In this document: piece after piece, positions 23,546 through 63,622 of the stretch | Numbering within the stretch: position 1 is the stretch's first letter | How the letters are laid out: each line of letters opens with the position of its first letter | Assembly (NCBI GenBank): GCA_021234155.1 | Contig: JAJEKV010000010.1 | Coordinates: 12,753,116 to 12,817,115, forward strand | Source: Isoetes taiwanensis | Lineage: Eukaryota; Streptophyta; Lycopodiopsida; Isoetales; Isoetaceae | Length of the DNA stretch: 64,000 nt | Direction of reading: 5' to 3' | The notes under the pieces: model-generated | The model's database searches: none | Seen by the model: only the letters and a program-made list of their open reading frames with translations | What the model was told of the DNA's origin: nothing | Position numbers and translations under genes: made by a program

Positions 23546-23654
<109 letters not shown>

Positions 23655-27304: not shown

Positions 27305-27589
27305 CTAGCTTGACCACGTTATGCATAGCCTGTAATCATTGCTAGATTTCAAGACTCTATATGCTTCTAACAAGCTTCCACGTTTAGAATACATGCCAAG
27401 AAGAGTGCTATTCACATCAATGTCATGTTGGAATTCCATCCCAATAATCCACTCATGGATGTGCTCCTTGCTCATGGATGCTTTCAACTTGCTCAAAGAT
27501 ATGCCTTTGCTCGGTGGCAATCCATCATGTTGCACCACTTGAAGATAGTTCATGTTCACCATTAAGGCCAAAGGCATTAAGGATAGCAA
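27305..27589 (-). pseudogene. PPR protein fragment (copy 2)
   Basis: Duplicate of the fragment at 671-1015, with the same GMYSKRGSLLEA motif. The reading frame ends slightly earlier because of a small difference near 27,330. It is a gene remnant, not an expressed protein. Confidence 0.7.
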
Positions 27590-32573: not shown

Positions 32574-33172
32574 AGTCAAGAAGTGAAAGCTTAATGCACC
32601 TTTTTGGTTGCCAAGTGGGGGAATCACCAATACAGAATTTTTTAAACAGTCTTGCTGAGTCCAAAAAGATACTAAAGCTAGGAAATTCTGAAAAGCAAGC
32701 CTTTAATGCAATCGGTAACAGACCAGCATGCGAATATCACAATTACAAGGAACTTGGTGTTTCTTTTTTTTTGCTTCGAAGCTTCAAAGTTGGAAGCGCT
32801 TCACATATATAATGGAACACATGGTTATGCAGTTTATGATGGAGAACTTCCACACGGCCTCAGGTATTTACTATTTGGAGGATTGTCAATTACATTACAA
32901 TACTTTACATGCAAATACCCTACTTGCAAATTTAATAACAGTCTTCTTTTTTTCTTTTGTTTGGGACTTGTTATGCAGCATGAGCATGAACGGAGGAGAT
33001 ATTGTTAGGCTACTAGGAGAGCCTGATGGAAAAATGGGGGCGGTGAGGCGGTGGTCCTATCTCTATTGCTTATAAAGAAAAGGGTCTGCAGATTAACTTC
33101 TTGGGAGGTAACTGGGAAGACAGCAATAACCCTAATAGATTCTGTTACTATTCATGAACCTCTACATCCCTG
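32574..33172 (+). pseudogene. Two-exon unrecognised protein, frameshifted (copy 2)
   Basis: Same gene as 5,993-6,588. A T-tract near 32,763 is four bases longer, and the G-rich tract near 33,040 differs, shifting the frame in both exons. An extra C near 33,131 also changes the end. These are homopolymer differences, so sequencing error and true decay cannot be told apart here. Confidence 0.5.
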
Positions 33173-34145
33173 AAGCATATTCCATGTCTATTCTTCAAAT
33201 ATGACAATGTGACAAAAGAGTTGCCATGCTATGGGACAATTTTGAATCTTAAGTTGTGGGTGATGCTGAGAATGGCATTTAAAAATATATAGAACCTGAT
33301 GATATAAGAGATGGAAATGTGAACATATACGCTGTGGGATATTAACGCTATACCCTGGAACTTTGGTGTATTTTTTTCCATCATCGACTCTGGGCATGGT
33401 ACATGTAGGTGCCTACATATGGCAAGGAACCTTTGTAACAGGGCTGACATAGTTGTTTTGAAGTTGTTTTGAATGGTCAATTAAACTTGATGCAGAAAGA
33501 ACTATTTATACTTATACTGGACAAAATTTGTTGTTTATTGTGTGAAAAGGACTTTCTAGTCAAAGACGCCCAAATCAGCTATCGCAGAATATTTTTGAAC
33601 CAGAGATTTTTGAGCCAGGGGTTCAAGCTCTGATAGTGTGAAAGCATTTCAAAAAAATTACTGGGACGAGCACTGTAAATCCATTCGATGATTTATGATA
33701 AGCAAATAGTGTATTGGCATGATATAATACGTTTTTGTTGGGAAGGGGAGAAAAGACTAAAGGATGTTAAAGGTCTATTGATTTTTTGTTGCATGTGGTC
33801 TGCAGTTATGTTAAACAACGTAGTAAAACGTTCAAACTACTTTGGTGGATAGCATTCTCCAGGCCAAGAATCATTTACAGCATTTTCTGCAACACAAGGT
33901 GTAAAAAACGCAGCAACAGTACGATGAGAATGTGTATTTTCACACCTTCTGGTATCAACATGAATCTCATCAAAAATATGCAACTTATTCTTTAAAATGC
34001 ACCTTGTAGTATCAACATGAATCTCATCAAATATATGTAACATATTCCTTAAAACATCCTGTTCAGTGTTTCACAGATGTTACTAGTAGAGCTTGCATTT
34101 TAGGTTATAACAGCACATATCTGACATGATCAAGAGACACGATTT

Positions 34146-36443
34146 GGGTTAAAACGGGTCTTCTGCTGCTTCAAAAGCTCTTGAAGATACCAAAAAGACC
34201 AACCTTACAATTATCTTGAATTGTGCTTGGCATTATGCCATGGATTTGTCTCATATATTTTGCAATATTCACATCCTTTGTCATCACTGGGTAACCTCAT
34301 CTGGCTGTATGCTATCAGACAGCAGCTCATCAAACCATGAAGAGTAGCCAATGTAGCACTGCCAACCTGGGTATAACCAGCCCATTGCACTCTATGATGC
34401 AAAATTTTAACTTGGCAATTCAGGTTTCCAATTAATAACAGCCAACACAAGCATAAATATTTGACATGAGCACATATGCCTGGTAAACCCTGGATCCAAG
34501 CAAATAATTTCATCAAAACATCGTTTCCCGACCTCCACATTTGCATTCATACTGCAGGCATAAAGAAGTGCCATCAAGCCACACATGTTGGGTTTAACTG
34601 CAGTATACAACAAATCTTCTGCCTCTTTAAAGTATCCTGAAGACCCCAAAAGATCAACCATGCAATTGTAGTGAAATAAGTTTGGCACTATGCCATGGCA
34701 CTCTCTCATACATTTGAAATACTCGTCCTTCGTCCACTAGACCAGCATGACTGCATGCATTAAGAACACATAAAAGACATCTCATCTGGCTGTATGCCAA
34801 CAGTTGCATCTCATCAAAGCATCGAGAAGCGATCTCCGGATCACCAATCTGAGCATAACCAGTAAGCATTGCATTCCATGACACAACATTTCGGATCGTC
34901 AAGTGAGAGAAGCTACTCCCACGACTCTTGCAAGCTGCCACAATTGGCATACATATCAACTAGGAGCGCTCCCTATAAAAGGGTCATAATGAAGACAATC
35001 TTCAAAATTTTGGTGTGGATGTACCTGCCCTGGCACATGGCCCCTATGCTACCACAAGCTTGTAGGATGCTGGGATATGTAATATTATCTGGTTCTATCT
35101 CCTCCTGCTGCATATTATCAAAACATTCTAATGCAATAAAACATTCATTATGCTGTGAATATCCAGCAATCATGGTGCCCCACGAGACAGCATCCCGATT
35201 CGTTAACTGATTGAAGACTTTGCCCGCATCCTCCAGGCTCCCACACTTAGCATACATATCTACAAGTGTGCTTCCTATAAAAGGATCAGACTGGAGACTG
35301 TTGGCAACTATCTGTTCATGCATTTGTTTGCCTGCTTCCACAGCACCAATGTTACCACATGCTTTTAAGATGGCCAAAAATGTGATCCTGTCTGGCTTTA
35401 TACCCTCTTGCTGCATGTATTCAAAATAGTCTAGGGCAATAGCGCATTGATCATGTTGGACATATCCAGATATCATGGCACCCCATGACACTGCATCACG
35501 ATTACTCAATTTGTCGAAATTTCTGCTTGCCTCCTCCAAGCACCCACATTTAGCATATACATCTACAAGTGTGTTCTGCAGACTAACATCCAAATGTAGA
35601 TGACAGTTAATTATCTCTTCATGGACCTGTCTGCTTTGCTCCTAAAGAGCCAATGCTTCCACAAGCTTTTAAGATTCCCAAAAATATAACTTTATCTGGC
35701 CTTATACCATCTAGCTTCATACTATCAAAGCTCTGCAAAGCAAGAAACCCTTCACCATGTACAGCATACCCAGTAATTAGTGCACTCCATGACACCACAT
35801 TTGCTTTCGACAACTTGACAAATACATCATATGCATTGTCCAGGCATCCACATTTGGCATACATATCTATAAGTGTACTCCCAACAAAAACATCAGAATA
35901 AAAGCCACTTGTAATGATCTGTTCGTGTACCATCCTACCATGGAAAAGAGAACATGTGAGTGTACATGCTTTGATGACAGCAATATAAACATATTTATCC
36001 CTTTTCGCACCTGATAGTTGCATTTGTCTATACATTTCAAGACCAGTCTTGGGTTGGCGAAGATTTGCGTAAGCTGCAAAAATTGCACTCCAGGAATACA
36101 CACTGGGATCTAAAATTCTAATAAACGCTTGGCTTGCTTCGATTAAACAATCAGAGTTGGTATAGAGACGAATAAGATGATCATCCAAGTAGCCAAACGA
36201 ATCAATGCCATCTTGCGTCATAATTTTTTGCACATGCCTGCCGCATTTCAAGTCTTTTCTTCTGATACACTGTTGCAAAAGAGTGTATGCATTGCTTTTT
36301 GACGGACCGAGACTTTGCCACTCCATAACTCTTCTGAATTTCTGACCAATACCAATTGCGCATAAGTAAAATGTACAAATTGGTCTGTGATTCCTTGAGC
36401 AGAGGTTGAAATAGCCATAGCCGTTATCAGCCGACCAACTCAA
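34146..36443 (-). pseudogene. PPR gene, frameshifted copy 2 with decayed tail
   Basis: Duplicate of 7,566-9,862. The first 266 or so codons (from 36,443) are intact. A one-base insertion near 35,640 (CTGCTTTGCTCCTAAAG against CTGCTTTGCTCTAAAG in copy 1) breaks the frame. A second open block runs 35,593-34,973, followed by further shifts near 34,960, 34,800, 34,730 and 34,490. All PPR motifs are still recognisable. The gene is either a recent pseudogene or intact with consensus errors. Confidence 0.8.
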
Positions 36444-37085
36444 ACAGAGTAACCCCTTGAAATATTCCTGAAATATTCTTTCCGATCAGTAACCTTGTTT
36501 TGGTCGTATGCATCTAATTCTCAGGTACTGTACTGCATCCAACAATACAATAAATTTGGGTATCTAGTGCAATGGTCTATTGTGTTTTATGGTGTATGTA
36601 GCGTGCACAATGCATTAGAACATTGTAGATAGAGACACTTTGTGTTTTTTCATACTTCCTCTTCATATTTGTAGCTGAGTTTTAATGCACCTCTGGGAGT
36701 CGAACCCAGGTGCGGCCTTCGGTGCGGCGCCCATGGTGTAGAGGGAGCATGCGGCTCTCAGGGGGAACGATGTTCCATCTACATCCTAGGCATGAGATGG
36801 AGGGAGTGTGTTTTTTTTTTTGGGGATGCATACCTTATTTATGGAAGCAGTTCTTTGTAGACGATGTCCATTATAGTTTTGTTTGTATTTTGACTCGTCA
36901 AGAAGGATCAAAACATCTTCTCTTTTTTCGCCTGCGTGTGAGCGTTGTGTACAGTTGCCCGTGTGTGAAGACCTCGGTCTGTAGGTTGAGGACTACCTTA
37001 TCTAGGGTGATTCCTAAGCAGATGTGGAATGTTGTTGAATCTGGCGTCGTCGTAGTGGGAGGCTATCATCGGTTGGTAGAAGAAG

Positions 37086-38979
37086 TCAACTCCAGATATG
37101 GGATGTATGTTTTCGACATGCTGTGGCTGGCCCGTTAGAATTTTGACGGTTACGAACTTGGCATGCATTGAGCATACTATGACTCTTGCGTTTTTTATCT
37201 TTGTCCAGTGTTTTTGTGATGTGGCATATGGTGTTGGGCTTTAACTGGAGTTCGTGTTGTGGAAGCGCTGGGTGTTTGAAGCCGTTGAGGAAGTCTGTCG
37301 TTGCCATTGGATGGTCTCCGAGGTTTGGTCGTTTTCCGTGAGTCTATCGATATTAAAGTAGCCTTTTGTGATTTGCTAAGATCATTCATATAATTTCGAT
37401 GTTGAATCGTCAACATGGATGTTTTAAGGGATATGAATGCTCTCTTCTGCATATTATAGACGTTAGTAATATGTGCGCATTGTATAAGAAGCTGACGGCG
37501 TCTTCTATTTTCGTTGTTGTCTTGAATAGTGTTAGTGGAATATCATTGAGGAGATGGCCCTCTTCGATGTCATCGACGAACCGTATAAGATCTGGGTGGT
37601 TTAGGTTTTCTTCTTGGCTCGTTGAGTTCTAGCACTTTGAAGTGGTTCCATAAGTGATGGATGCATTTATTATTCTTTGTTTTTTCCTCCTCGCTTGATG
37701 ACCTCGAGTGATCTGTCTAAAATCTCTCTGACTATAAATAGTTTTCCAAAGAATGGAAGTACGTGTATGCACATTTATATTTTGTAGAAGGATGTCAACT
37801 GCCTCTATGACAGCTTTGTTGGCCATGGGGAACTCGTCCCATATGATCACTGTTGCAGTGTTGATTAATGCGGCTTTTGGGGAATGTGGATCGAGTAGTG
37901 AATGGATTCCAATATTGTTATCGATGTGGTATTTGAAACGAGGGGAATATCACAGTTCTTCAGTGGGTTATTGTAGCGATGCCAATGCTGTGGTGGCACA
38001 CGGTACGATTACTTGGTTCAATCCTCGTATGAAGAGGCAGATAGCATTGAGTACGTATGTTTTCCCAGTTCTTGCTTTTCCATAAATGAAGATTGAGGTT
38101 GGGCAATTTTTGTTGTTGATAAGTTCGCATATGTAGGTGTAGATTGAGGATTGGTTTTTGTTCATGGTCTGTAACATACTTGAGCTCTTTATAAGGTACT
38201 CTTCGTGATCGGGGAACTTGTTGAGTTCGTTTTGTATTTCTTTAGATGGGATGTTGTGCATAGGCAGGCCAAAAGCTCCAGTATCAATTTTGTGTTGGAT
38301 TAAGATGTTGTTAATAGCGAGGAGGCTTTCATTGGCAGCAGCTAGTTGGTTTCCTAGGTATTGTTCTAGAAAATGTGATGTTGAAATGTTTTCCATAGTT
38401 GAAGCGTTGGTCCGGAATCTAGTATTAGGAGTGCAAATAGGAATCGTAATTGCGATGGAGTTTGAAGACATAAGATTGCCTCTTCCATTACTGCTATGGC
38501 TTCAGTTGCTGGTGCAATTAGTCCCATGGCTTGAGGGTTTTCTGATATGTTTTGTACTATTGTTAGTCATGGCTCTTGAGTTCATCCCAAGATCGTGCGG
38601 CCTTGTAAAGCAGGATGAGTCTCAGGTAGAATGGCTCTCCAACCTTTGGAAATAGTAGCCGTATTCTACAGATTAGTTGTCCTCTTGTTCTCTCATTGAT
38701 GATGTTCTGGGTCATGTCCTGCAGATTGTTGTTCTAGATAATCGGTTGGCTTGAGGACAATGCTTGGTTTGTATGTATTAGAGGTGTATTGTTCATTGTA
38801 TTCGATGTAGGTAACATGATCAAATTCTGGATCAAGCAATCGTGAGAAGCGGTGTCTAATAGGGAGATTAAAAGTCTATGAATGCATTTTTTAAACGTCA
38901 CATTTGTGTCCTTCGAATGTAGGGAAGACATTTTACGGAGGAATGCTTTTCTGTTATGTGGTAGGACATGATTCTTCAT
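37086..38979 (-). pseudogene. Decayed Helitron-type Pif1 helicase (copy 2)
   Basis: Same remnant as 10,322-12,394. The Walker A segment is in a slightly longer open frame here (38,471-37,968), with 'VIVPCATTALASLQ' after the P-loop, closer to the Helitron consensus. The Walker B segment is more damaged. Together the two copies show the helicase was broken before the duplication and kept decaying, or that the consensus is noisy. Confidence 0.75.
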
Positions 38980-39472
38980 GTGGCCTCCATGGATGATAGA
39001 TATCGTCTTGGAGATATAGTCTTGGATTTCATTCTTTGTGTGATCTTGGTCACTGTTGTTTGTTGTGGTAGATTGGTTTGGAATATATGACGTTCCATGT
39101 ATTTATACGGTATATGTATAACCACTGACACGTCATCGGGACCATTGGGGACTAACCTAAAAGGGTTTATTGCAACTAAATTAGCCTAATTAGGGTAAAT
39201 AATGGTATTAATTAGTAACGTAGAATGATTAGAGAGTGCCACTTGGCCTAGATCGATTGGCCCAGAGGCAGGTTGCCATTTTGGGATGGCAAATTGGGCT
39301 CCCATCCCCAATTCTGCCCAATTCAAATTTGGGAGAAGATTGAGGAAGATTGAGGAAGATAGGAAGATACTGGCTCCAGCCCGGATAGTGGTTAGTTTTA
39401 GTCTTAGCGTAGTTTGTGTTCTGCTAACCCTTGTTTGAGTAGATGAATGATTAGATTCTATTCTATGATCTA

Positions 39473-39500
39473 CTAGTAATGGTGCCCAGCGTTGCTGGGC
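39473..39500 (-). mobile_element. Helitron 3' terminus (copy 2)
   Basis: Duplicate of the terminus at 12,897-12,924: CTAG at 39,473-39,476 and hairpin arms GCCCAGC/GCTGGGC at 39,484-39,500. The arrangement to the neighbouring pyrimidine tract is identical. Confidence 0.7.
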
Positions 39501-39616
39501 ATAAGTTGGAAATTTGTGTGGACGAAAATCTATTCAGCTCAAACTCCTTTTCATAAATCTAATATAATAGAAACCCGACCCAGCATTGCTGAGCTTTAAG
39601 AAGCTTTTGTGCATTC

Positions 39617-41190
39617 GACACCCTTCCTCTTCCCTTTTCCTTTGTTCTATCCCGCATTTCCCTTTTTCCTTGTTTTCCTACACACTTTCCTTTTTCTTTT
39701 TTCTCTCATTTTTTCTATACACGTCCTTTTTTTTGCTTCTCTTGTTTTCTTTTTATCCCCTTCACCCTTCTCTTCCCTTTTCTTTCCCCTTTCCCTTTTT
39801 CCCTTCCTTTTTTTCTGAAGGACCTTTTCCCTTCCCTTTTCATCCTTTCCCCGCCCTTCCCATCTTTTCCTTTTCTTTTTCACTTTCCTTTTTTCCATGC
39901 ACTTTTTTCGTTCTCTTTTCCTCACCTTTTCATGTGCCCCTTTTCTTCCTTTCCCCATCCTCTTCCTCTTTATCCCTTACCCTTTTCCGCTTCTCTTTTC
40001 CCATTTCCCTCTTCCCTTTTCCTCGTGCCCGTTTTCCCTTCCCTTTTTCCTTTTCCCTTTCTGCCTTCCTTTTCCTTTTCATTTTCCTTCATTTTTCATT
40101 CTTTCGCCACCCTTTCACTTTTCCCAGTACCCTTTTTCCCTTTTTTTTTCTTCTGTTTCATTTTCGTTTTCTATTCTATTCTATTCTTATGCATCTTTCC
40201 ATTCCTTTTTCTCTACCTTTTTTATGTGCCCCTTTTCCTCCTTTCCCCAACCTTTTTCCCTTTTCCTCTTCCCTTTCCTCTTTTTTTTTTTTTTTTCCTT
40301 TTCCCATGCTCTTTTTCCCCTTTCCTCACCCTTTCCCTCTTTCCCTCTTCCTCTTTTACCCATGCCCCTTTTCCCTTTCCTTCACTCTTTCTCCCTTCCT
40401 TTCCTTTTCCCATGCCCGTCCCACATTTGTTCTCTTTCCTTTTTTTCCATGCCCATTTTCCTCTTTTCTCCCACCCTTTCCCTCTTCCCCTTTTCTTTTT
40501 CCATGTCTTTTTTTTCGCTTCCTTTTTTCCCTTTCTTCGCCCTTTTCCTCTTCTCTTTTCTCTCGTGCCCTTTTCTCCCCCCTTTTTTTTCTTTTTTCAT
40601 TTCCCTTTTTCTAATGCCCTTTTTCCAGGTTCTATTTCCTCCTTTGCCCCTCCCTTTCTTTCTCCTTTCCCTTTTTTCCCTTCGCTTCTTCCCACCCTTT
40701 TCCTTTTTCCCCTTTTCCCTGCCCTTTTGCTCATTTTGCCAACCTTTCACTCTTTTCCTTTTCTCAGTGCTCCTTTTCCCTTCCCTTTCCCTCTCTCTTT
40801 TCCTTTCCCATGTCATTTTTCCCTTCCCTTTTCTTCTTTCCTCATCCTTTCCCTTTTTTTCCTCTTTCCCATGCTCCTTTTCCCTTTCCTTTTCCCGTGC
40901 TCTTTTTTTTTTCCCTTCCTTTTCCCATTCTTCACCATTTTTCTCACTCTTTCCTTTTTTCCGATGCCATTTCCCCTTCCCTTTTCCCCTTTCCTCATGC
41001 CCTTTTCTCAGGTTCCCTTCCCCCCTCCCTTTTGATTTTTTCTTTCCTTTTCCCTTTTCCCATGTATTTTTCTCCTCTTATCCCCACCCTTTTCCCTCTC
41101 TCTTTTTTCCCTTTTCCCGTGCCTTTTTGCCCCTTCATATTCTCTCTTTCCTCCTCCCTTTTTCTTTTCCCCTTTTTCCTTTATCCTTTC
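39617..41190. repeat. Polypyrimidine tract (copy 2)
   Basis: Same tract as 13,041-14,640 but with many length changes of individual units, about 25-30 bp shorter overall. The differences are mostly gains and losses of T or C runs and short blocks, as expected of slippage or of poor consensus in low-complexity DNA. Confidence 0.95.
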
Positions 41191-49800: not shown

Positions 49801-52800
49801 TGTGGGTTGCTCCAGCTCATGTTCGAAGAAGCCACTTCACATACTTATGCATTCAACAGAGGCATAGTTGTGAAATTCAAAACTTGGCGTAATCGTAAAA
49901 CTCAAATCCCTATTGAAGCAAACGGAATGCTCTTTTTAAGACGTTGAAGTGGTTGTAGCCAATCCGATGCACTGTCCTTGAAGATGTAATTGCTCCGGGT
50001 CTCATATTGTACATATTCTCTTTATTGCAATATACTCTTATCAATTTCTTTACGTTAGAAGTAGCGAGTATGTGCCAAGCTTATTGTTTAGGAATTCTCA
50101 TACACCACAAGATTATTATTGCATGTATCGATACATGCCTTAATATGTGAGCTCTGAATTCTCTATTTAAACTCATTGGTTTGTTTTTGTAGCACATATT
50201 TGTCTTTGTGTTGATGTTTTGTCTTGATCGTGATATTGCAGAATATTGTTTATCTTACATCCTTGAAGTGTATGGCATGTCATTCTTTGCAATTGGACTT
50301 AAAACACCTTTTTCTTAACACAGCTTCTCAACTTTGCAGGTTGGTATCTCATGGAAAACTTGAGTTATATACATCCTGTCCAGTATGGCATATCTAGGTT
50401 CGGCATATCTAGGTCTATCTAATTCCTATATACAGATATATTGTAGATGAGTGTTTTATACAAAAGCCTCGAGCAACTGCATACAATGCATCATCATGGC
50501 CATGTTTACTACGTGAAGGAGAATTGGGCATTTTACTAATGTGATGACTTTGCAATGAACAAATATGATTCAGACATTGTAGTTTGCATTTGCAGATTTC
50601 TACATCTTCAACCTGCAGAGGCAAGATTTCTGAGTATTGTTTCAAATGTTATGGTAAGGGGTGCAAGTAAGTAGTAGGGAGCAACCAATGAAACTGTAAT
50701 TCAGGTTCCCAATCAGGGATGTTGGGCAAAATAATGTCTCTCGATTGCTACCATATGCCTAGGCATATACCCTCATATATTGCTCCCATTGTTGCGCATA
50801 TACCCTCACTCTAGCCACGTTTGATGTAACCCCCTTCTCCCCAGATGTTGCCTTTGTTCCACTGTCTGGAGTGTGGCTTGGAAAATGGTAGGGATTTGAG
50901 TTTAAAACATTTGCTGCTGAGTTCTAATAAGATTACACTGTTTTCTTTTACCTTCAAAGTGTATAAGAATGTAAACTATTTTACTTTCACACTATTTGAC
51001 GACTTATGATTTAAATAGCAACTAATTCACTATATTTCAAAGCTCTTAATATAGGTTCTCAAGTTTTAGCATCTTCGAGTTTGACATGGAGCTCACTTAT
51101 CCTTTATGATGGTGGTATAGCAACTGAAAATTAGTGCAGAATGCACACATTTACTGGTCTGATACATCAAGATGTAGCATTGTAGATAGGTCTTATCCTT
51201 CGGTTTGCACACATCAATAGAAGACAATTATGAATACGTTATTGACCTCCATCAGGGTATGCACTCCTACTCCTACACAAAACATAACACGGTGATCCCT
51301 TCCTATTACTTTCGTCTTACTTTGTAATTTATCTTTATCTTAATCTTTTAATCATGTGACATGAAGTTCAAAGAGGAAAGGATGTACACGTACAGATATT
51401 CTACATGTTGCATATGCATGTCCAATCAAAGGCACACTTTTTGGATTGGCTATATTTAGGATCAACATCTACATTATAAAAAATAATAGATGTAGAACAA
51501 ATATAGGCTCAAGTAGGTCACATTCGAAAAATCATATGCTCCCAAATTTGAATTTTAATTCCTTCAATTACTTGCATGTGAAAGCACAAAAGGGTCTTTA
51601 TAGTACATTCAGGTTCAATGTTGGGTTGCAACATTTCTAAGTCCAAATATCCTTGCCCCCTCCAAGCCACATTGTCTATTCCCACCAACAATCTTAACAA
51701 CCACCTCTTTAAATTGTTACTAAGCCCGGCAACGCCGGGCACCATAACTAGTTTTTAAAAGTCACATATTTTATCAAATGATGTTTGGCCACCTATTGTC
51801 TTAAAAAACTTTCACTTTTCCACTATGAAAATAAGACATGTCTTATTTAGGTTCGGGATAGGTTTGGATTGTAAATGGAGTCTTATTTTAATCCGGGAGA
51901 TTTCCCCCGCCATAAAATAAGACACCTAGTCTTATTTGAAATTCATGCCGAGGAGGTGGACTCTCGGTATAAATTTATACTGCGAGAGTTCTTCCGCGGT
52001 ATAAATTTATACCGACAAAGTGCTAAGCGGTATAAATTTATACCGCCCGTGTTCACATGGTATAAATTTATACCGGCGAGCAAGGGCGGTATAAGTTTAT
52101 ATCGCTTAGGACCCTGTCGGTATAAATTTATACCGCGGGAGAACTCTCGCGGTATAAATTTATACCGAGAGACCACCTCCTTGGTATAGATTTATACTCA
52201 CACGGTATAAATTTATACCGGCAGAACGCCGAGTCGGAAATCTGTATAAAATCATACAGTTTCCAAGACTTTAGTGTGTTTTAGGTGTTAAAGAAATGGA
52301 AAAAAGTGTAAAATAACATCTCATAGAGGTTCCCTAAGACAACATTTTTAGTACTTAATTACAGAAAAAATTAGAGGTAAACCCAATTTCCGTGACGTTT
52401 AAGCCTATTTTTTACGCGTTTTCAGCCCAAAGATTACCTTTAAAGGCAAAGGTCAACAGTCAGCTCCGAAGCCCAAATCCTACGAACTCAGGGATATTAC
52501 GTGGTACGTCCACAGGGGAGCTAGAGAACGCTACCCCACTGATGCGTACTTGTACGTATGCAAAAAGACAGGAAGGGGGAAGTTCAAGGCTGACGACTAC
52601 CATCCTGCGGAGAAATGACAAGTCTGATGGCCACAGAAAGTGAGGACGAGATTTTAATGAATTGCATCAACGATGAAGGCGACGTCGAGTACTTTCTGAG
52701 CAGCAGAATGTTCAGGATAAGCACGTGTAAGCCAAAGGATGTCAATGAATACATTTCGGAAAATATCAAACTTGGCTATGTGAGTGTAAACCTCTGCCTT

Positions 52801-55800
52801 CTGTCTTTTAATCCTTTATCGTGTAAATTTATACGGGCAGCAAACTAACTGAGCATCCTGAATGCAGGACATAGTAGACATCCTTTCCTCAGTCATTCTG
52901 TGTGATGAGAAAGTTATTGTCAAGGGCTTCTGGTACCCACGGGCCAAGGAAGAAGTGGAAAAAGACATTGAACCAGAAGAGGAGGAGGAGGAAGAGGAAG
53001 AGGAGGTGGTAGTCACAGGGAAGGGGAAGAGGAAAGCTTTGGTCATTCACACACAGGCACCAAAGAAATCTAGGAAGACCAAGGCCTTATCAATAGAAGA
53101 GTCTGCAGAAGCACTTCAAAAGGCACCTGAGGCCGACATTATTTTGAGATCCTCGGACAGGTCAAGTGCAATTCTAAAAAGAATAAATGAAACAAAACTC
53201 CTGAAGCAAACAATTTCTTTAACTCTGAGCACAATCAAGAGGCCGCCAAAGAATGAGGATGGGGTCAGAGTGCTTCAAGTGAGGAAATTGTACGCAGCAC
53301 ATGTGGCAATACTAAAGCAGATAATGCGCAGAAATACACATGCCCATGTGTCGCCGCTGGTTGTTATGGTTGATCGAGAGCAGGTCCAAGAGCTCAGGCA
53401 TTACAGGAAGGCCGACTTTGAGGACTATACATATTACATTCTCGGTGGAACACACAGTTACAAGGCCAGGAAGGAGCTATCTAAGGAGGAAAGCAGAAAC
53501 GAGATCTGGAAGAGCGTGGAGGCCCATATTTACATTGGGTTGACAGATGAGGAGACCAAAGTCATTGCCGTGAGCCACAACCTGGACAATGACTTTAGGT
53601 TGAAGATGAGCCTCATAGACAAAATCCGCTTCATGCACAGAGAATATGTCGAGTTCAAGCAATTGCATGGAGAGGACTTCAAGAAGCAGAAGAACAAGCT
53701 CCAAGAACTTCGGGAGGCTTGTGTGACAGAATGTTGCTTGAGTTATGATTCTGATAAGAAGCCCATGTAAATGTTAAGGTCATGTTATACTGTATGCTGA
53801 AACTGGTTCCAGGGGTTAGTTAGATTCGATCCTTCACATGAACTAGAGATGCAGATTGAAGGTTATCCTTAGGGGGTAATTGCAAGTTCTTCAATGGTCA
53901 AGTAGGAGCACAAATTATATGCTCAAATATTACCTTCAATGGTTCGTGAGCTTTTAAATGTCAAAGTGAATGTGGGATATTGTTTGATTGGTCACGAAAC
54001 TGCAGATATGAATGTGGGATAATTGCTTGACGGTGAGAAGAAATAGAAGGGCCGAAGATCACGCCTGGCCGACCTGCTACTCTGACCTGCACCGACGGAA
54101 TGGATATAAAAGAGGTGTAATGCCATTGTGTTGGGTGGTAGTGCCTGGATTGAAGGTGAAGACGAGTTTATCTATGTGTAAGGAGCTTGGGTTCTCGGAG
54201 ACAATGCACAAATCTTAAGATATTTTGTCCAATGGTTTAATATACAATATTGAGAAGCATTGATTGAACAATGCCACGGTTCTATTGCGACAGCAATAGA
54301 ACCGACATTCCTTGGATGGGGACGTCCCTTTGTCACTCCTCCTATTTATTCAGCCTCTTTTCATTGTTCTATCATCGGCGTTCTCTTGAGCTAGATTTCT
54401 CCTTCTTCTTTATCCTATCAGTTTCCCTCACCCTCCCTCCCTTGATGGTGTTTTTCATTTAATCGTGTTCGTTATTTCCTTTTCTATATCCTTTGAATTT
54501 TCTCTCTTTATTTCCTCAGCGTGGCTTTGTAGCCTCTGAGGCATACTTTTTGGTTTACTCTTTCTCGGCATGGCACTAGTATTTTTATTCATTCATGTTT
54601 TCTCTCGTTATTGGCATTGTAAGCCTCGAGTCAATATTTATTATTCATATTTCTCTTTCCATTGGCGCTTGTTGCCTCCGAGATCATATTTATTGTTTTT
54701 CTCCGTGGCGGCCAGAGTAGCCTCCGAGGCAACACTAATCGGTTGTTTTTCCCTCGCGATGATCATTCCACGGACGGTTCCGATTGGTGGCCGTGTTGTT
54801 TCTTTCTGCATTGGCCACGGAGCCTCAAGTCTTCTTGCCTATGGCATCTAACTCATTGACGGGTTATTTTTCTTCGGCCTTGAGTCTGCCGGGGATTGTT
54901 TACGGTTTTGTGGTTGCCATAGTGCGTGGGGCGTTACTTCAACTATTTGCTTGGGTTTCCTCAAAAACACGAGGCGGCGTGGTTCTTCTTCCCAGGGAGG
55001 AAGCGATCCTGCGAGGGTCTTCTCACCTTTGCATCGACCAAGTGGCGGATAAAACCATCTTTTATGTTGTATTTTTCAGTATCATCATGCTCTCGATGAT
55101 TGTCTAGTTTCGGAGCCTTTGAAAGTTCGTATTTCCAAATTTATCTATCCCTAGTGAGGGATCCATTTGTACTCAATGTTTTACAAAGTTCAATGAGAAC
55201 ACCACTTCACTTCGTATATGCCTATCATAGGACCCATCCTAGGAAAGAAAATTATGTGTGTGCATCACAAATAAACTTGTCTTTGTAGTTTAGAATCAAA
55301 TTGTTGATTCATCTCCATTAGAATTAGAGTACTCACCTCTATAGATTCTTTTCATTGGTATCAGAGCCAGGTTGAAGTACAATGGCTACCAGATTTGGTG
55401 CAAATCTGCAATTCTATAAGGTATTCAAAGGAGATGGTGGCTTTCAAATCTGGAAACAAAGTATCGAGAAAGAAATATTGGAATTTGAAAAAGCTGTGGG
55501 TATTTAGTTGATCCTAATGCTTCGGGAAGCCACTGTGAGTGCAGGGACAACTAGTCAAGGGGGAACTAGTGCCAGCTCAAGTGCTGAAGGCTCTACTCTA
55601 AGGGCAACTGCTGAAAGTGCACCTGCTCGTCCCTCCATTGTAACAGCAAGTGGAGAGGAGGAAAAGCTGAAAATCATGGAAGCACAAGCAATCATCAGTT
55701 GCAAGGTAGGATCTGTGATTAAATTGAAGCTGAGGGGTATGACCCCAAGGGAAATGTGGATGTATTTAATTAAAGAATATGAGGCCAAAACATCCTCTCA

Positions 55801-58800
55801 GATAGATGTGTTGGAGAAGCAGTTGAGAAGGTTAAAACTGCATGAAAAAGATAATGTAACTGAGTTTTTTGAGAAGTTTGATTCCATTATAGCAGACTTA
55901 GAAGGTGCTGGAGTTATTCTCAATGATGCTATAATTGTGATAGTTATGGCCATCTTAAGGCTGATTTGGATGAAGAACCCGAATTTGGAAGAGAGATAAT
56001 ATGTTACAATTGTGAGGCAAGGGCCATATGGCTTCAAAATTTATGCCCAAGCCCGGAAAATACAAAGAGATAATATGTTACAAAGGCAAGGATCAAAGTT
56101 CTGGTTTTAAAAAGGGATATGACCAGGAGAGGAGCATCAAGGAAGAACCCCACGATTAATCTTACTAAAGACAAACAAAGTGAAGAAGATGAGCTTGATG
56201 AAGATGCAGAGGTAAGTCTCCCCGAAATGCATTCTATTGTTAGAAATAACATTGATAATGATGTTATGATAATAGATTCCGGAGCTGAAAAAAGTAAAGT
56301 CGCAAATCCAAATATGCTTAAAAGTTCTGCCGAGAGGAAGAAAAGGAGGACATGTTCAATTAGGAAATGGAGATCTTCAAGAAATTGAAGATGTAGGAGT
56401 GTTAGAGTTGTTTTTGACTTAGAAGAGAAAAAAAGTTGCAGTTGGAGAATGTGCTTTTGTGTGCGGCTTAGTGAGAAATTTAATTTCGTCTCTCAATTAG
56501 TGGATCTTGGATATAAGGTCTTATTTGAGAAGTTACATTGTAAAGTTTTGCTCAATAATAAAGTAATGTTCTTGGGAAAACGTGTTGGCAATTTATTTGG
56601 TTTATGCAATGATCACATTCGGCCCAAGATTAATTTTGTTGGACATCCAACCTTTAAAAATGGCATCATAGAATGTGTCATGTGAATTCCGTGAGCCATT
56701 GAACCTGCTGGCAAAAAGGGAATGATTAATGTTAGCAAAGAGGTCAAGAACTAAAATGTGCGGGGTGCATATTGGGAAAGCATTGGGTGTGCATTACCTT
56801 TTAAAAAAATCTCTCAAAAGAGCCAAAAGGACTATTAGATCCCGATCCACCTGCAGTCTATGTGGGCCACTTAATGTGACAAGCTTATCCAAAACGATAT
56901 TTCATGACACTTATTGATGATTTCAAAAAGACATTTGTTTATTGTATTAAGACAAAAGATGCGACTCACGGAAATCTTCAAAGCGCTTTGTTAATGAAGT
57001 TGAAACTGAAACAGGGAGAAAAAATCAAGTGTTTGAGGTCAGATAGAGGGGGAGAGTTCATATCAGATGAATTCAAACTCTATTGTAGGAAGAGAGGAAT
57101 CAAAAGGCAACTCACATGCAGGTACTCTCCTCAACAAAATGGAATTGCAGAAAGAAAGAATAGAACAATTTTAAATGCAGTCAGAAGCATGCTAAAATTT
57201 TCAGGATTACCCAATTTTCTTTGGGATGAAGCTGTTAGAGCTGCTGTTCATGTTCAAAATATGTTGCCATCATTAGCCTCACAAGGAACAATCCCAGAAA
57301 TGCTGTGGTCTGGAAAGATACCTCATTATGAAAATTTGAAGGCATATGGATGCTTAACTTTTGTGCACATACCTGATGAACTCAGAAAAAAACTTGATGA
57401 CAAGTCACTAATAACTTACATGGTTGGTTATGATAACCAATCAAAGGCTTATAAGAACAGATGATCCACAAAAAAAGGAGAATAGTAATAAGTCGAGATG
57501 TTATATTTGATGAAGACCAATTCTATAAGGTTATACCAAGGTGAATGTACAATATGCAGATCTGGAATGCAAATCATCTGAGGTTACAGCAGAAAAAGCT
57601 AGTGATGAAGCCAAGATTATTCAAGAGGAGCAGGAGCAGGCTAAATATTTTGATTCCTCGGCGAATCCCAAATAAGAAGACATGCAATTTAAAAATATTG
57701 CTAACCCGATAATGATGCGGTAAGGATAATGCTATGTCGGTTCAAGATGAGGAGGTTATAAGTACCAAGCCTACAAGGAAAAAAGAGACAAACCCCAGTC
57801 CAAAAGTTGCGGGGAGGATTGCAGAGATAGATACAACTCATCATGGACGAGATGAACTTGGGAGGAGTAAAAGACTTCACGAGAATGAAGGTGAGATTCA
57901 TGATTTGTTTGAAATCTTAATGCATTTGGATACTAATGTACCCAAGACCTATAATGAGGCTCGACTAAAAGTGACAAGGTTTTGAAGTGGCTAAAAGCAA
58001 TGAATGATGAGTTAGCATCATTGAAGAAGAACATAGACTTTGAATTAGTAGATATACCGAAAGGGCAAAACATAGTGGGGAACAAGTGGCTATTTAAACC
58101 GAAAACCGCCCCCGATGGAAAAACTCCAAAATATAAGGCCAGGTTGGTTGCTCAAGGTTTTCACAAAAAGAAGGTCAGATTATGAGGAGACTTTCTCACC
58201 ACTTGTCAAAATGAACAAGATAGGAATGTTGTTGTCCATAGCTAATGCTTGTGACCTTGAGATACATCACATGGATGTTATCTTGCTTTTGAATGCTAAA
58301 CTTGAAGAAGAAATATATATGAGACGGCCTCCGGTTTTGAAGAAGGGAAAGATAAAGTATGGAAATTAAAAAGAAGCGGTTTATGGCTCAAGCAATCCCC
58401 TCGAGAGTGGTATAAATGCATGGACTCTTATCCGATTGAGCAAGGGTTTAGTAAATTCAAAAAAAATGATGGAAACATCTATAAATTTGTGGCGTGGAAG
58501 TGAATGGTGCATTATTGCACTTTATGTTGATGACAACATTATGATAGCAAAAAGGAAAACAATGTTTAGATCGGTGCAAGAACATTCTCAATAGAAGATT
58601 TAAAATGATGATCTTGGAGAATTGCGTAAATTCTTAGGTGTTGAAGTGAAAAGGAATCGAGCAAATAAAACTATAGTGCTTACTCAAAGGGGTCAAATTG
58701 AGAGCATGTTAAAGAAATTTAAGATGGAGCAATGTAACGGTTTGTAAAAGCCTGGCTGCACCGGGTATAAAATCTCGAGCATATGTGTCCTAAGGATGAC

Positions 58801-60752
58801 ATTGAAAAGAGAAGAAATGATTGACACACCTTACGTATCATTGATAGGATGTTTGTCTTATGTTGCCAACTGCACAAGGCCGGACATATCACACATTGTT
58901 AACATTTTAAGCAGTATAATAATGATCCGGGGACGAGGTCATTGGAGTCGCGAAGAAAAGGGTACTTTCGAGATATCTCCAAAGGGCACCATGGATGTAG
59001 GAATAACTTATCGCACAAATAACATGATCCTAAGTTCATATTGTGATGCAGATTGGGGAGGTTGCATGGACACTAGGAAGTCCACATCCGGTTATTTAAT
59101 GATTCTAGGTGGTGGACCAATTGCATGGAAGTGTAAAAAGCAAAGTTCAATTGCTCTATCAAGTCTTTGAAGCGAGAATATCATTTGCCACTTTGTGTGT
59201 AAGAGAGTTAATTTGGGAGAGAAGATTGCTAATAGAATTTGGTTTTCCACATTGAAAAGCATGTATTGTAATTTGGATGAGTACAAAGCCGCATAGCAAT
59301 GTCTAAGGATCCAGTTTTGCACGAGAGATCCAAGCACATTGAGTTAGAACTGCATTTTATAAGAGAAGCAGTCAGTAAAGGTCTAGCAAAATTGACCTAT
59401 GTGAACACTAGAATGCAACTTGCAGATATACTAACGAAAGTGCTAGCTGAAGGAAGATTTGCAGAACTCAGAAGATTAGTTCAACATACAGATATAACAT
59501 GAAGGGGGAATGTAAATGTTAAGGTCATGTTATACTGTATGCTGAAACTGGTTCCAGGGGTTAGTTAGATTCGATCCTTCACATGAACTAGAGATGCAGA
59601 TTGAAGGTTATCCTTGGGGGTAATTGCAAGTTCTTCAATGGTCAAGTAGGAGCACAAATTATATGCTCAAATATTACCTTCAATGGTTCGTGAGCTTATG
59701 TCAAAGTGAATGTGGGATATTGTCTGATTGGTCACGAAACTGCAGATATGAATGTGGGATAATTGCTTGACGGTAAGAAGAAATAGAAGGGCCGAAGATC
59801 ACGCCTGGCCGACCTGCTACTCTGACCTGCACCGACGGAATGGATATAAAAGAGGTGTAATGCCATTGTGTTGGGTGAGCTGGGTGCCGGATTGAAGGTG
59901 AAGACGAGTTTATCTATGTGTAAGGAGCTTGGGTTCTCGGAGACAATGCACAAAGCTTAAGATATTTTGTCCAATGGTTTAATATACAATATTGAGAAGC
60001 ATTGATTGAACAAAGAAAATTATGTGTGTGCATCACAAATAAACTTGTCTTTGTAGTTTAGAATCAAATTGTTGATTCATCTCCATTAGAATTAGAGTAC
60101 TCACCTCTATAGATTCTTTTCAGCCCATCATGGCAGTGAAGCAGTACGATAACTACTTCCAACTTGCTTTGAGAAATGGTCAAGTAAGTACTCCCTCCTC
60201 CAATTTAAGTTTGTTATAAGGTAGTTTAGAATGTGTAGTTTAGATAAAACTCGTCGCTGGAACCGATATAAATTTATACCGCATCCTGGAGCGGTAGAAA
60301 TTTATACTGCCATGCCATGGTATAAATTTATACCGTTCTAAACCGCGGAGTAAGTTCATACCTCGGCCCTCAACAGTATAAATTTATACCGTTGTAGGGA
60401 CTGCTATAAATTTATACTGCGGTCGAGAACGGTATGCCTCAACTGACTCTAGCATTTATTGTACCGCAACTGGCCATATGCATTAAGCTGCTTGTCCTCA
60501 AATTTCAACAGGTGTGGGATCTACAGGAACGAACCTTTGTATGTTCGAAGATGGTGAACTTAAAGAGCAAGCTAGCACCACTGGTAAAAAACCAAAAAAG
60601 GTTTTGAAACAAAACAAAAAAACATGAGCATAGTACCATGGACACAACTACAGGGCTTGAAGAGCAAAGAAATATTTGTGCGGCTCTTGGAGAAAGATGT
60701 GGCGAAAGAATTTACTCTAGACGAAATGGCTAGTCTCGTAACAAACAATTAG
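46804..60752 (+). CDS. Spliced gene, unrecognised family with ParB/sulfiredoxin-like module
   Basis: Exons inferred from frame and GT-AG sites: (46,722 or) 46,804-46,959; 52,404-52,614; 52,615-52,779; 52,868-53,765 joined to 60,128-60,183 after removing a Copia insertion; 60,512-60,583; 60,654-60,752 (stop TAG). Product in order: 'YFHPYRVERAYQIDATQ...GRITTGRFPHPRYAT', 'YELRDITWYVHRGARERYP', an acidic run of E (52,976-53,005), a nuclear-type basic stretch (KGKRKAL...KKSRKTK), 'VVMVDREQVQEL', then 'YYILGGTHSYKARKEL' (53,432-53,479) and 'YIGLTDEETKVIAVSHN', which resemble the ParB/Srx fold (VD..Q, GG.HR..A, LTDEEA..HN). A one-base shift separates the blocks at 52,614, where a TGA and an ATG overlap as ATGA. 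5' exons are missing. Function unknown; nuclear DNA binding is inferred. Confidence 0.65.
46960..51751. other. Large intron with Helitron-derived AT-rich DNA
   Basis: Between the donor at 46,960 (GTAAGT) and the acceptor at 52,403 there is no coding sequence that I can recognise. ORFs here (for example 48,524-48,893) are short and without known motifs. The part ending at 51,751 is Helitron-derived (see the 3' terminus). The 5' limit of that Helitron was not found. Confidence 0.45.
51723..51751 (+). mobile_element. Helitron 3' terminus in the intron
   Basis: GCCCGGC-AAC-GCCGGGC hairpin (51,724-51,740), then ACCATAA, then CTAG (51,748-51,751), followed by host T. This is the same layout as the minus-strand terminus at 12,897-12,924, with a near-identical hairpin, so both belong to one Helitron family. 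Confidence 0.75.
51829..51945. repeat. AAATAAGAC/GTCTTATTT palindrome cluster
   Basis: A perfect 20-bp palindrome, AAATAAGACATGTCTTATTT, at 51,829-51,848 is followed by three more half-sites: GTCTTATTTT near 51,882, AAAATAAGAC near 51,914 and GTCTTATTT near 51,932. The middle two form a hairpin. The cluster stands directly upstream of the TATAAATTTATA array. Confidence 0.8.
51966..52258. repeat. Array A of 16-bp palindromes GGTATAAATTTATACC
   Basis: Nine copies start at 51,966, 51,998, 52,029, 52,059, 52,088, 52,119, 52,151, 52,183 and 52,204, plus a degenerate one near 52,242. Five are perfect; most others have one to three changes. The first eight are spaced 29-32 bp, close to three helical turns. 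Spacers are GC-rich and different, but paired: spacers and sites from 51,937 to 52,195 form one large inverted repeat centred at 52,066 (site 1 pairs with 7, 2 with 6, 3 with 5). The array lies in an intron, ~150 bp before an exon of the ParB-like gene. Confidence 0.95.
52821..52834. repeat. Degenerate palindrome site in the 88-bp intron
   Basis: GTGTAAATTTATAC inside the small intron 52,780-52,867 matches 12 of 14 bases of the array motif. A single AT-rich match could be chance, but it lies in the same gene as the two arrays. Confidence 0.45.
53766..55354 (+). repeat. 5' LTR of the Copia element (1,589 bp)
   Basis: It matches the 3' LTR at both ends (53,766-54,271 and 55,245-55,354) but has an extra ~975 bp between them. 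That extra part contains five or so diverged ~60-bp repeats built on (G)CCTCCGAGGC(A) and CATATTTATT motifs (54,515-54,835), and a hairpin GGTTCTATTGC/GCAATAGAACC at its left edge (54,279-54,304). Confidence 0.9.
55381..56390 (+). pseudogene. Copia gag and protease region (broken)
   Basis: Begins ATG GCT ACC AGA near the PBS, reading 'FGANLQFYKVFKGDGGFQIW', then a stop. A second open stretch (55,508-55,999) has the UBN2-type gag pattern 'EMWMYLIKEYEAKTSSQIDV...VTEFFEKFDSIIADLEGAG'. The zinc knuckle is not recognisable. A protease-like 'MIIDSGAEKS' (normally DSGAS/T) follows near 56,268. Confidence 0.75.
56904..57464 (+). pseudogene. Copia integrase core
   Basis: A 186-residue open frame with 'TLIDDFKKTFVYCIKTKD' (first catalytic D), 'LRSDRGGEFISDEF' (second D and the GGE/F box), 'YSPQQNGIAERKNRT' (catalytic E) and 'LKAYGCLTFVHIPDELRKKL'. 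The D-D-E triad is intact, but the frame upstream and downstream is interrupted. Confidence 0.85.
57982..59502 (+). pseudogene. Copia reverse transcriptase and RNase H (broken)
   Basis: Pieces in order: 'NIVGNKWLFKPKTAPDGK', 'YKARLVAQGF', 'DYEETFSPLVKMNKIGML', 'HHMDVILLLNAKLEEEIYM', then (in a shifted frame) a YVDD-type box near 58,525-58,540. Next come 'LSYVANCTRPDISHIVNIL', 'SYCDADWGGCMDTRKSTSGY' (RNase H) and 'LADILTKVLAEGRFAELR'. At least five breaks separate these blocks. Confidence 0.85.
59511..60122 (+). repeat. 3' LTR of the Copia element (612 bp)
   Basis: Begins directly after the polypurine tract and ends TTTTCA next to the GCCCA duplication. Apart from the missing ~975-bp middle it is nearly identical to the 5' LTR, with a few small indels, which indicates a fairly recent insertion. 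Confidence 0.95.
60265..60436. repeat. Array B of the same 16-bp palindromes
   Basis: Six copies start at 60,265, 60,293, 60,319, 60,347, 60,375 and 60,403, spaced 26-28 bp, with a half-site near 60,431. One is perfect and the others have one to four changes. It lies entirely in the intron 60,184-60,511 of the ParB-like gene, 8.2 kb from array A (about 1.9 kb before the Copia insertion). Confidence 0.9.
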
Positions 60753-61583
60753 GAGCAGTTTGGATCTGCCTATCATGCTGTGCCACGTGGCATTTTTCTT
60801 TTCCAAGAATGTTAACAGGAAACAAAACAGTGTCGTCCAAATTTTTATAACACTTCTATCGGCATTCTGTTTTTATGCAACATTCAACGGTTCTACCCAG
60901 CATTCTGGCCCACTGAATTGCTCCTACATGTTGTTCACGTCATACCAACGACTATCTACATGCCATTCTTAGCATGGAAATAGGGCGATGAGCATGCCAA
61001 GAATGGCATGTAAATAGCCATTCATGAGTTCTCAAGTCCATATGAAACTGGATAGCGTAAAATGAGGTTGATTAAACACTAATCTTAGGCTTATTTTTCC
61101 TTTTATTATATAAGCATAAATTATTTTATTTTATTTCAATTGGATACGGACAGAAGACAGAGTATGATTTCTTTAGGACCAACAACTAGGCTAGTGATGC
61201 AAGTGGGGGGGCCAAATGAAACAAAACGCACAAGACATGTGAACCTTCAAAGTAAGGAAAGGAACCACGTGCGTATTCTTATTGCTTGCTTTGAACGTAT
61301 CCTGTATTTCCGCCATACTCAGACCTCGCTCCTCTACCTTCTCTCCTTGGCCGCCATAGCCATCCTTTCTCTAGCCTCCTGTCATACGTTTCTGAAAGTC
61401 GTCTAACCTTCTTCATAACGCGCTTCAATTCTGCCCACATCAAGTATTGCTTTCTGTTGCAGAGGATCGGATTTAAGTGCCTCTACGCTGAATTTTGGGT
61501 AATTTTTTGGTCAATTTTTGGATCTTAGAAGACATGTTAAATTTTTAAGGGTTCCTCTAGTTTGTCTGATTTTGATCCTCATC
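60753..61583. other. Intergenic region and probable PEAPOD promoter
   Basis: No gene. It contains a palindromic-looking GCATGCCAAGAATGGCATG near 60,990-61,010 and AT-rich DNA around 61,090-61,140. An ORF at 61,140-61,406 has no recognisable family and is probably leader sequence of the downstream gene. Confidence 0.4.
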
Positions 61584-63622
61584 ATGAGCGAAACAAAAGT
61601 AGCAGTGGACTTTTTGGGTCTTGGAACTCGCCCAAATGATGGGCAGGAAGAAGAGGTTGAAAACTGGCCTAAACCAGTTGATTCTGAAAAGAAGCAGCCC
61701 GTTTCTGATAACAAGGTTGGGGGTGGAGCATTATCTCCTGAGAAATGTTTTCTCGACAAGCCTTTGGAAGACCTCACTGAAACAGACATATTGCAACTCA
61801 CTCGAGAAGATTGCCGTCGTTATTTAAAAGAGAAGGGTATAGTACGCTTTTTTTCCATTCTTACGCTATTAATTCGTTCCCTACGTAGCTTAATAGGATT
61901 TTACAAAGCTGCAAAATTGGATGATCCTCAGAACTACTCAAGTCTGTTATATGTTTTTTGCGGTTAATATTAACTATCTTTAACCATCTTCTAGCGTGTT
62001 GGCCTGGTTCACATTGCTTTGAATGTTATACATTTATGGTTTATCTCCGCAGTGCTAATTTTATGATGTGTACATAGGAATGAGACGCCCATCTTGGAAC
62101 AAGTCTCAAGCAATGCAACAGGTTCTGTCTCTGAAGGGGCTTTTTGACCAAAAGAATGCAGAAAAGAAAGAGGAAGGGAGCTCCTTATCTGCAGATGATA
62201 ACACCGCGTCCTTGGAAAATGAGACACTGAACAATGGTCATGTAAGCTTTAAGAATTTATCTTTTCATCTAGTGATCTGGATATCAGTATCATCTGTGTT
62301 TCCAATTTGTGCTATCTGAAGAGTTGTACTTCTAGGTGGTTCAGGAACAGCAGGCACCTGGAGATCGGCCTGAAGGATTGCCAAAAACTAGAACTGCAAC
62401 ATTCTGCAATCAGAATGTACATTTATCACTTTCTACTCCTGCTGCTCGTGAACCGGTCTCAAGCCCAAATCTGTCTAGCATGTGCAATGGCTTTCCATTT
62501 TCGGATTTTATGCAAGCTGATACAAAGCCTAATCTTGAGCAGTTACAAAGGATGCAGGGGGCATACTCCCAGGGCATCTTAAAGTCAAGGTAACTGTTTG
62601 GTGTTCCTGTAGCACGCTCTTTTCTTCAATTTCTTAATTATATGACCTTTGATTGATCAGGTTGATGGCATGTCATGGACCACTTAAGTCACCCGTTGTG
62701 CATACCATGTCAAAGCCATTCGGTTCCCAGCTGACCATATTCTATTCAGGAATGGTGAATGTCTATGATGATGTTTCTGCTGAGAAGGTACCAAGATGGT
62801 AGTATTATTTTTGTTTGAAAACTAGAATTCATCCTTTAATGTCCACGACTTCACAGCAATTTATATGGGAATCATGATGTCAATAAAAGTAGTATTTGAA
62901 AGATACAGTCCTCAACGTTGCATATGTTAATCTTGTTATGAAGATTAGCAATCTGTATTATTATAGGGAGAAGTAAAACTTTTGCTGCACAATGGTCTCT
63001 TTAGGCTTCTAAATTGTGCTTTGTGTTACTAATTTATTTTTAGGCACATGCAATAATGCGTCTTGCGGGAAATGGTACCTTACCTTCAAAGACAATACTG
63101 CCTATGCCATTGCCTAATAGGACCCCCATTTCAGCTGCAACTCCGCCCAGAAGGTGCACATCAATTGCTTTTCATCTGCAGAATTGCCACAAGCAAAGAA
63201 AAAGCTTGTAAGCTGCAACGTTCCTAGAGAAGGAAAAAGAGGTATGGTTAGCAGACTTTTTTGTCTACTATTATGTGCATCGTTCAACTTGGTACTTGGT
63301 TGTGTTTGCAGACTTACGGCAAAAGGCACCATATCCTGCAGAGAAACAATTAACTGAGGCATCCAATGAAATGTCTCCAAGTCCAAGTGTTTGCACCTCC
63401 ACCCTGATACAACATTGCTCAACCATCCCAGAGTCTTGTGACACTGAAACTTGCTGCTCTTCAAAGCTTTCTGGAGCATTCAAGCATGTCAATGGCGATG
63501 ACATTGGAGTAACTGATATGGTACCCAGAAATGAACAGGATGCTATAAGCGTTCTAAAAGAATGCTCAGATAAAGAGAGGAAGACATACATGGTGCCTGA
63601 ATCATCTTCAATGGAAGTTTAA
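61584..63622 (+). CDS. PPD: PEAPOD-type TIFY4 transcriptional regulator
   Basis: Six exons: 61,584-61,836; 62,078-62,241; 62,336-62,589; 62,661-62,786; 63,044-63,241; 63,312-63,622. N-terminus 'MSETKVAVDFLGLG'. The PPD domain is split by intron 1: 'LTETDILQLTREDCRRYLKEKG' then 'MRRPSWNKSQAMQQVLSLKGL'. The TIFY domain in exon 4 reads 'QLTIFYSGMVNVYDDVSAEK' and runs into 'AHAIMRLAG' (exon 5). The Jas-like region is split by the usual Jas intron, with 'KAPYP' at the start of exon 6. PEAPOD proteins act in the nucleus with NINJA/TOPLESS and KIX partners to repress genes and limit meristemoid proliferation in angiosperms. In exon 5 the Jas helix is spread over different frames (LQR then FLEKEKE), so one or two bases seem missing near 63,210-63,225. 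The start is the first Met giving the TIFY-like N-terminus. Confidence 0.85.

Follow-up and report, generated by a model that had tools for sequence, protein, structure and literature searches.

Why should a plant gene with ParB-like motifs be accompanied by clusters of a 16-bp palindrome? The question is raised by a 64,000-nucleotide stretch of the lycophyte Isoetes taiwanensis genome (GenBank assembly GCA_021234155.1, contig JAJEKV010000010.1, positions 12,753,116 to 12,817,115), called the window below. An earlier interpretation of the letters alone (the sequence-only reading) had suggested that the encoded protein recognises these palindromes, either for autoregulation or for the marking or partitioning of a mobile or extrachromosomal element. 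We find that the window gene is a dead fragment of a multi-copy DNA transposon family in Isoetes taiwanensis, and that in fuller copies the ParB-like gene runs on into a DNA methyltransferase. Judging from sequence comparisons, we consider it fairly probable that this ParB-like/methyltransferase protein reads the arrays of its own family and marks the element DNA as self, within a Sola1-like transposon.

The window contains 15 matches to the palindrome GGTATAAATTTATACC with up to three mismatches, compared with 0.45 expected and a maximum of two in any of 100 shuffles. Nine of these form array 1 (51966-52219), one stands alone in intron 1 (52820-52835), and five form array 2 in intron 2 (60265-60418). 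A chance origin of the palindromes was rejected on the strength of the window shuffles and of a genome-wide control with the reversed palindrome. The sequence-only reading had counted 9 to 10 and 6 copies in two introns; at this threshold the counts are nine and five, with the sixth copy of the second array being more degenerate. Its assignment of the first array to an intron is less secure. In full copies array 1 separates two divergent genes and precedes N1, the earliest exon recognised. N1 itself is preceded by a candidate splice acceptor, however, so another exon may come before it, and array 1 may fall within an intron that follows an unseen 5' exon.

The palindrome and the gene are found together throughout the 1,658,258,908-base assembly (1110 contigs). 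With one mismatch allowed, GGTATAAATTTATACC occurs 13,337 times, compared with 57 occurrences of the reversed control. Searching with the ParB-like exon gave 131 scored candidates among 4150 first-look candidates, and we examined 30 gene copies, chosen as the top scorers among at least 131 and not at random, which include the window's own (L015). Arrays accompany all 30, with 3-31 sites per ~3.9 kb at up to three mismatches (1-25 at up to one), while in the same copies the reversed palindrome yields 0-1 matches each and a second control 0-3. Conversely, all ten loci of listed palindrome arrays fall within elements of the family, as assigned by inverted ends (L005, L007, L008, L009, L010, L012, L013 and L014, with a single end in L007, L008 and L010) or by element genes (L006, L010, L011 and L013). 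The co-occurrence of arrays with homologues of the gene, on which the sequence-only reading turned, is thus borne out from both sides.

The elements that contain these arrays have the anatomy of a transposon. Their 30-bp inverted end, AACAARGTTTAAAATGAAACGCACTTATTT, occurs 1095 and 1111 times in the genome (2206 occurrences at up to three mismatches; control 0 and 0). Among 100 listed places, all 23 close convergent end pairs (less than 20 kb apart) combine one G-form and one A-form end, with spans of 8.3-9.5 kb in 13 cases, 2.2 kb in four and other lengths in six. Identical 4-bp target duplications border ten of ten chosen end pairs and seven of eight further elements (17 of 18). The family is a DNA transposon, and the guess that a mobile element is involved was correct in that respect. 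Three full copies could be followed from end to end (L013 with L048, 8.6 kb; L047 with L049, 9.7 kb; and L073, 8.7 kb), the last of which is decayed by frameshifts, whereas many ParB-like exons stay open. When oriented alike, copies share a common layout, in which the left end is followed by a leftward DUF7869 gene, an array, a second array, exon N1 and a single site, and then by the ParB-like exon, an intron array, a linker exon, methyltransferase part 1, a further intron array, methyltransferase part 2, additional sites and the right end. The DUF7869 gene, a putative transposase, has a Pfam match with an E value of 1.9e-52 and acidic motifs identified by eye only; no mention of DUF7869 was found in the mainly open-access literature searched. 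Scans of viral contigs, which were pattern-based and may let distant relatives escape, gave no viral relatives for either this gene or the ParB-like exon. The layout shared with an Ectocarpus Sola1 element, together with the 4-bp duplications, indicates that the family is probably Sola1-like. The duplications do not fit Sola2: passages of PMC3627910 describe 4-bp target duplications for Sola2 as well, but AT-rich ones, and those found here, which include ACCC, CTTC and CACT, are not AT-rich.

Shortened elements also carry the palindromes. Three that were picked by their ends (3 of the 10 listed end pairs outside 8.3-9.5 kb) contain 10, 8 and 10 sites (control 0, 0 and 1) and keep small gene remnants. 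A 2.2-kb class of copies with gene remnants only, present at L005 (3456-5658), L012 (3587-5754), L014 (3588-5787) and L074, retains the inverted ends and a palindrome array. Separately, an open frame with reverse-transcriptase-like motifs, of the long interspersed nuclear element type by eye, lies at 515-1390 of L013, ~0.6 kb beyond the full element on its right side.

The second half of the element encodes the protein of interest. Its joined downstream exons match the N6_N4_Mtase family PF01555 (E 1.6e-8; 35.2 bits against a cut-off of 26.7) and, in the PDB, CcrM and MboIIA. In L013 and L081 a (D)xPYG motif IV lies ahead of DAFSGSGT, which is the beta-class order. Across the genome all 150 scored PF01555 matches, of 1443 candidates, exceed the cut-off, with a best score of 72.6 bits. 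The ParB-like exon is conserved, with a median ratio of nonsynonymous to synonymous substitution rates (dN/dS) of 0.095 (range 0.030-0.375), calculated from 106 of 171 pairs after leaving out 65 with dS of 0.05 or less, or undefined.

A second family of elements provides a comparison. Its representative, L077, is 46% identical to the window's ParB-like protein P0001, and searching for this family 2 gave 150 scored candidates of 3428. The DNA upstream of L077 (L080), the one copy from which family-2 upstream DNA was taken, contains several GTGTATTCCGGAATACAC-type palindromes; nothing there comes closer to the first palindrome than four mismatches, and a degenerate GTGTATTCCGGAATACAC-type copy is present in intron 2 of the family-2 gene. 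The half-sites of the two palindromes have GTAT in common and differ in their three central bases, AAA versus TCC. In the genome the GTGTATTCCGGAATACAC-type palindrome occurs 7,618 times at up to two mismatches (control 12), often at 42-bp intervals. A DNA search with the family-2 array found 39 loci, of which 15 have a listed family-2 gene no more than 2.5 kb away (query locus included), although the query was taken beside a family-2 gene and part of this co-location is therefore plain homology; none of the 39 is near a listed family-1 gene. Either a listed family-2 gene or a listed methyltransferase match is near 22 of the 39, and the other 17 may adjoin unlisted copies. Of the top 60 PF01555 matches, 21 follow a listed family-2 ParB-like gene on the same strand, at a distance of 1.7-2.4 kb, and for none does such a gene lie on the opposite strand. 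The comparison suggests that protein and sites diverge together between families, as in VANC/VANDAL, and the differing palindrome of the second family favours recognition by a protein that the element itself encodes.

The distribution of sites within elements hints at function. None of 596 sites in the 30 copies is inside the ParB-like exon, and the lone intron-1 site is retained in 28 of the 30 though the flanking intron diverges, a pattern suggesting that the sites are under selection. The ParB-like/methyltransferase protein appears most likely to be the array reader, because the arrays crowd its gene and differ where the protein differs. It would bind its own family's palindromes, using repeated sites at fixed intervals, and the bound protein would then mark element DNA as self. 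The attached methyltransferase suggests a mark on DNA, possibly adenine-N6 or cytosine-N4 methylation. By analogy with VANC and VANDAL elements, the likeliest outcome would be anti-silencing or control of expression, and shortened copies with arrays and inverted ends could be served in trans. A more specific proposal, to which we give somewhat less than an even chance, is a private code between protein and site: a phage-type ParB-like/N6-N4 methyltransferase would load on family-specific arrays and write N6-methyladenine or N4-methylcytosine, evading or overriding host silencing, with several families of one land-plant genome using mutually exclusive codes.

The spacing of the sites bears on other possible readers. 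Each array has its own interval: the one at the DUF7869 promoter mostly 21 or 40-42 bp, the central one 30-32 bp, the intron-2 array 28 bp and a later one 29-30 bp. The presence of an array with its own 21- or 40-42-bp spacing at the DUF7869 promoter, and the retention of arrays along with inverted ends in shortened copies, would fit arrays that are binding sites for the DUF7869 transposase, used in synapsis or in control of its own promoter, with the ParB-like/methyltransferase gene having some other role. However, the arrays are internal rather than terminal, they lie within introns of the methyltransferase gene, and no site at up to three mismatches was found in the half of L013, L045, L047 and L073 that codes for DUF7869. 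This is the main rival explanation, though an unlikely one.

It is also conceivable that the arrays have no reader and are passive palindromic satellites that spread by hairpin-mediated copying. Array 1 forms a single long inverted repeat (51939-52193), the 116-nt arms of which (51939-52054 and 52078-52193) are 88% complementary. Among L015-L044 the spacers between sites recur with little preference for one orientation: the central array has 62 inverted and 49 direct recurrences among 570 pairs and the intron-2 array 56 inverted and 54 direct among 221, compared with 0-1 after shuffling for both arrays. On this basis, array growth seems to proceed by copying in either direction, as if blocks flip. 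Passive growth would leave unexplained the lone intron-1 site kept amid divergence, the array-specific spacing and the separate palindrome of family 2, and we consider a purely passive origin distinctly unlikely. The stretch 51940-52230 has a very stable predicted RNA fold (-206 kcal/mol), as would suit arrays acting as RNA, transcribed into hairpins that yield small RNAs or control splicing. This role is highly unlikely: the lone 16-bp site is conserved yet too short for a long hairpin, and the central array precedes N1, the earliest exon recognised, the possible unseen 5' exon notwithstanding.

Several observations weigh against recognition and marking by the ParB-like/methyltransferase protein. 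Another protein could be the reader, either DUF7869 or a host factor, and the DUF7869 genes of the two families might track the palindromes too; the family-2 comparison is subject to the single upstream copy and the homology of the array query described above. One of the 18 elements, L014, lacks a matching 4-bp duplication. Canonical forms of motif IV in such methyltransferases are DPPY, NPPY and SPPY. In the copies read, this motif is non-canonical (DIPY or DLPY in L013, L047 and L081, NIPY in L045 and DIPH in L046) or broken (L073), and methyltransferase activity is consequently not assured.

The assignment of the first region to ParB is also uncertain. PF02195 was found nowhere in this genome, with 11 of 14 control genomes positive, and it was not among the families shown for 22 copies (25 of 27 families) or for L077. 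The position of the P-motif (Box II) arginine is apparently serine in 21 of 22 exons (one has a gap) and is serine in L077; we take this position to pair with the arginine of the nucleoside triphosphate-binding P motif of ParB. P0001 has no Pfam match of note. DUF6551 matches 17 of the 22 copies weakly (best E 0.0037) and L077 below the cut-off (E 0.00047), and unrelated Pfam families match some copies about as well. PDB searches returned no ParB relative, and phage matches to this part are weak (E 0.5 and above), the one inspected having no Pfam ParB match. Given the lack of PF02195 and only weak DUF6551 matches, the region is named ParB-like rather than ParB. A true partition system of the ParB/parS kind for an extrachromosomal element would fit the site size and the clustering of sites near the gene, which resemble parS, but the 4-bp duplications show the copies to be integrated, PF02195 has no match in the genome and the gene runs on into a methyltransferase. 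These results leave the partitioning and the extrachromosomal state proposed in the sequence-only reading unsupported, and their probability close to negligible.

The window copy itself is a remnant. Similarity to other copies (window positions 50000-62000 compared with 35 reference stretches) extends over 51939-60732 on the plus strand, a fragment with ~2.4 kb of element DNA that has lost both ends and is split by a Copia insertion. Exon N1 (52430-52791, plus strand), located by tblastn with the L013 exon, is in two frames. The ParB-like exon (plus strand) has its first part at 52868-53765, which encodes P0001, and resumes at 60128-60183, followed by a GT splice donor. Between these parts lies a Copia-type long terminal repeat (LTR) retrotransposon (53766-60122) flanked by a 5-bp target duplication, GCCCA (53761-53765 and 60123-60127). 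When its flanks are joined, the resulting empty site runs without a break in L016 and L017. The next exon (60512-60732, plus strand) is truncated where likeness to other copies stops. A single spliced gene with ParB-like motifs had been proposed for 46.8-60.75 kb. The ParB-like exon stands, in its two parts; the span does not, and because a comparison of the whole window with L005-L014 (matches over 150 bp) gave no similarity between 46.8 and 51.9 kb, the exons placed from 46.8 kb onwards are unsupported. The inverted end is absent from the window at up to three mismatches, and neither the DUF7869 gene nor the methyltransferase pieces have a match in the window copy at E 1e-3.

The window has further features. 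In the Copia element, inspection by eye shows ~1 kb (about 54268-55240) of the left LTR that is missing from the right LTR, within which 54270-54424 is 98.7% identical to L011 6060-6214 and is probably another repeat. Tandem repeats at 670-14580 recur at 27245-41135 with a constant offset of ~26.6 kb (for example 670/27245, 7359/33943 and 12759/39335), suggestive of a tandem duplication on a large scale. Long, perfect runs of the GA dinucleotide occupy 20444-20576 and 23549-23651.

The gene type itself is not new. According to passages of a 2025 survey (PMC12704722), phage proteins fuse a ParB-CTPase fold to an N6_N4 methyltransferase, and DUF6551 occurs in ParB-fold phage proteins. The Isoetes gene likewise combines a ParB-like region with a PF01555 methyltransferase, but it is eukaryotic and spliced, resides in a DNA transposon and is not matched by PF02195. 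The strings 'transpos' and 'plant' are absent from the main text of that survey, and the phage methylase matches that we inspected are short genes, which play no part in this comparison. Accessory DNA-modifying enzymes are also carried by other transposons, as passages on TET/JBP enzymes in fungal DNA transposons (PMC12730594) and on methyltransferases in virus-borne Mariner elements (PMC3627910) describe, although those passages mention no ParB-like region or matching site arrays.

The closest relative by layout is Sola1-1_Ec32 of the brown alga Ectocarpus. In passages of a 2025 paper (PMC12477816), this 21.5-kb element is described as encoding, opposite its transposase, a protein that combines a ParB-like domain and a methyltransferase. 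The enzyme's predicted mark is N4-methylcytosine or N6-methyladenine, and the proposal there is that the protein binds its own transposon and modifies it. The paper also cites related elements of green and red algae. The sequence-only reading, which knew of no such eukaryotic system, was thus wrong in part: a ParB-like/methyltransferase gene of this kind was already in print, with self-modification proposed, and VANC/VANDAL follows the same site logic. The Isoetes elements have the same divergent arrangement of transposase and ParB-like/methyltransferase genes, but their host is a lycophyte, they measure 8.6-9.7 kb, and they form two families with different palindrome arrays. The string 'palindrom' is absent from the main text of PMC12477816, and its passages describe no palindrome arrays. 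In the mainly open-access literature we found no report of such elements in lycophytes or of family-specific palindrome arrays for them; as far as found, the lycophyte host and the arrays as candidate targets are new. The Isoetes genome adds such candidate targets: the palindrome arrays, whose sequence changes from one of two related families to the other. If our interpretation is correct, the arrays and this switch would be the missing target sites of the self-modification idea printed for the algal relative, and the family would be a natural source of DNA methylation other than 5-methylcytosine in a land plant.

In its non-coding DNA the family most resembles VANC/VANDAL. Passages of PMC5735166 report that VANC of Arabidopsis binds a family-specific motif repeated in the non-coding DNA of VANDAL elements and lowers silencing. 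There, as in Isoetes, a dense, family-specific short motif occupies introns, intergenic DNA and upstream DNA, and VANDAL motifs differ between related families and change rapidly in repeat number (PMC5735166; PMC10398659). The two systems differ in that VANC motifs are 8-9 bases long and in a single orientation, that the passages describe no methyltransferase, and that binding and demethylation have been demonstrated for VANC, whereas in Isoetes recognition is deduced from sequence. The Isoetes anatomy nevertheless matches that of VANC/VANDAL, with arrays of a family-specific motif in the element's own non-coding DNA, and, if our interpretation holds, it would be the second case after VANC/VANDAL of joint divergence of protein and site within transposons.
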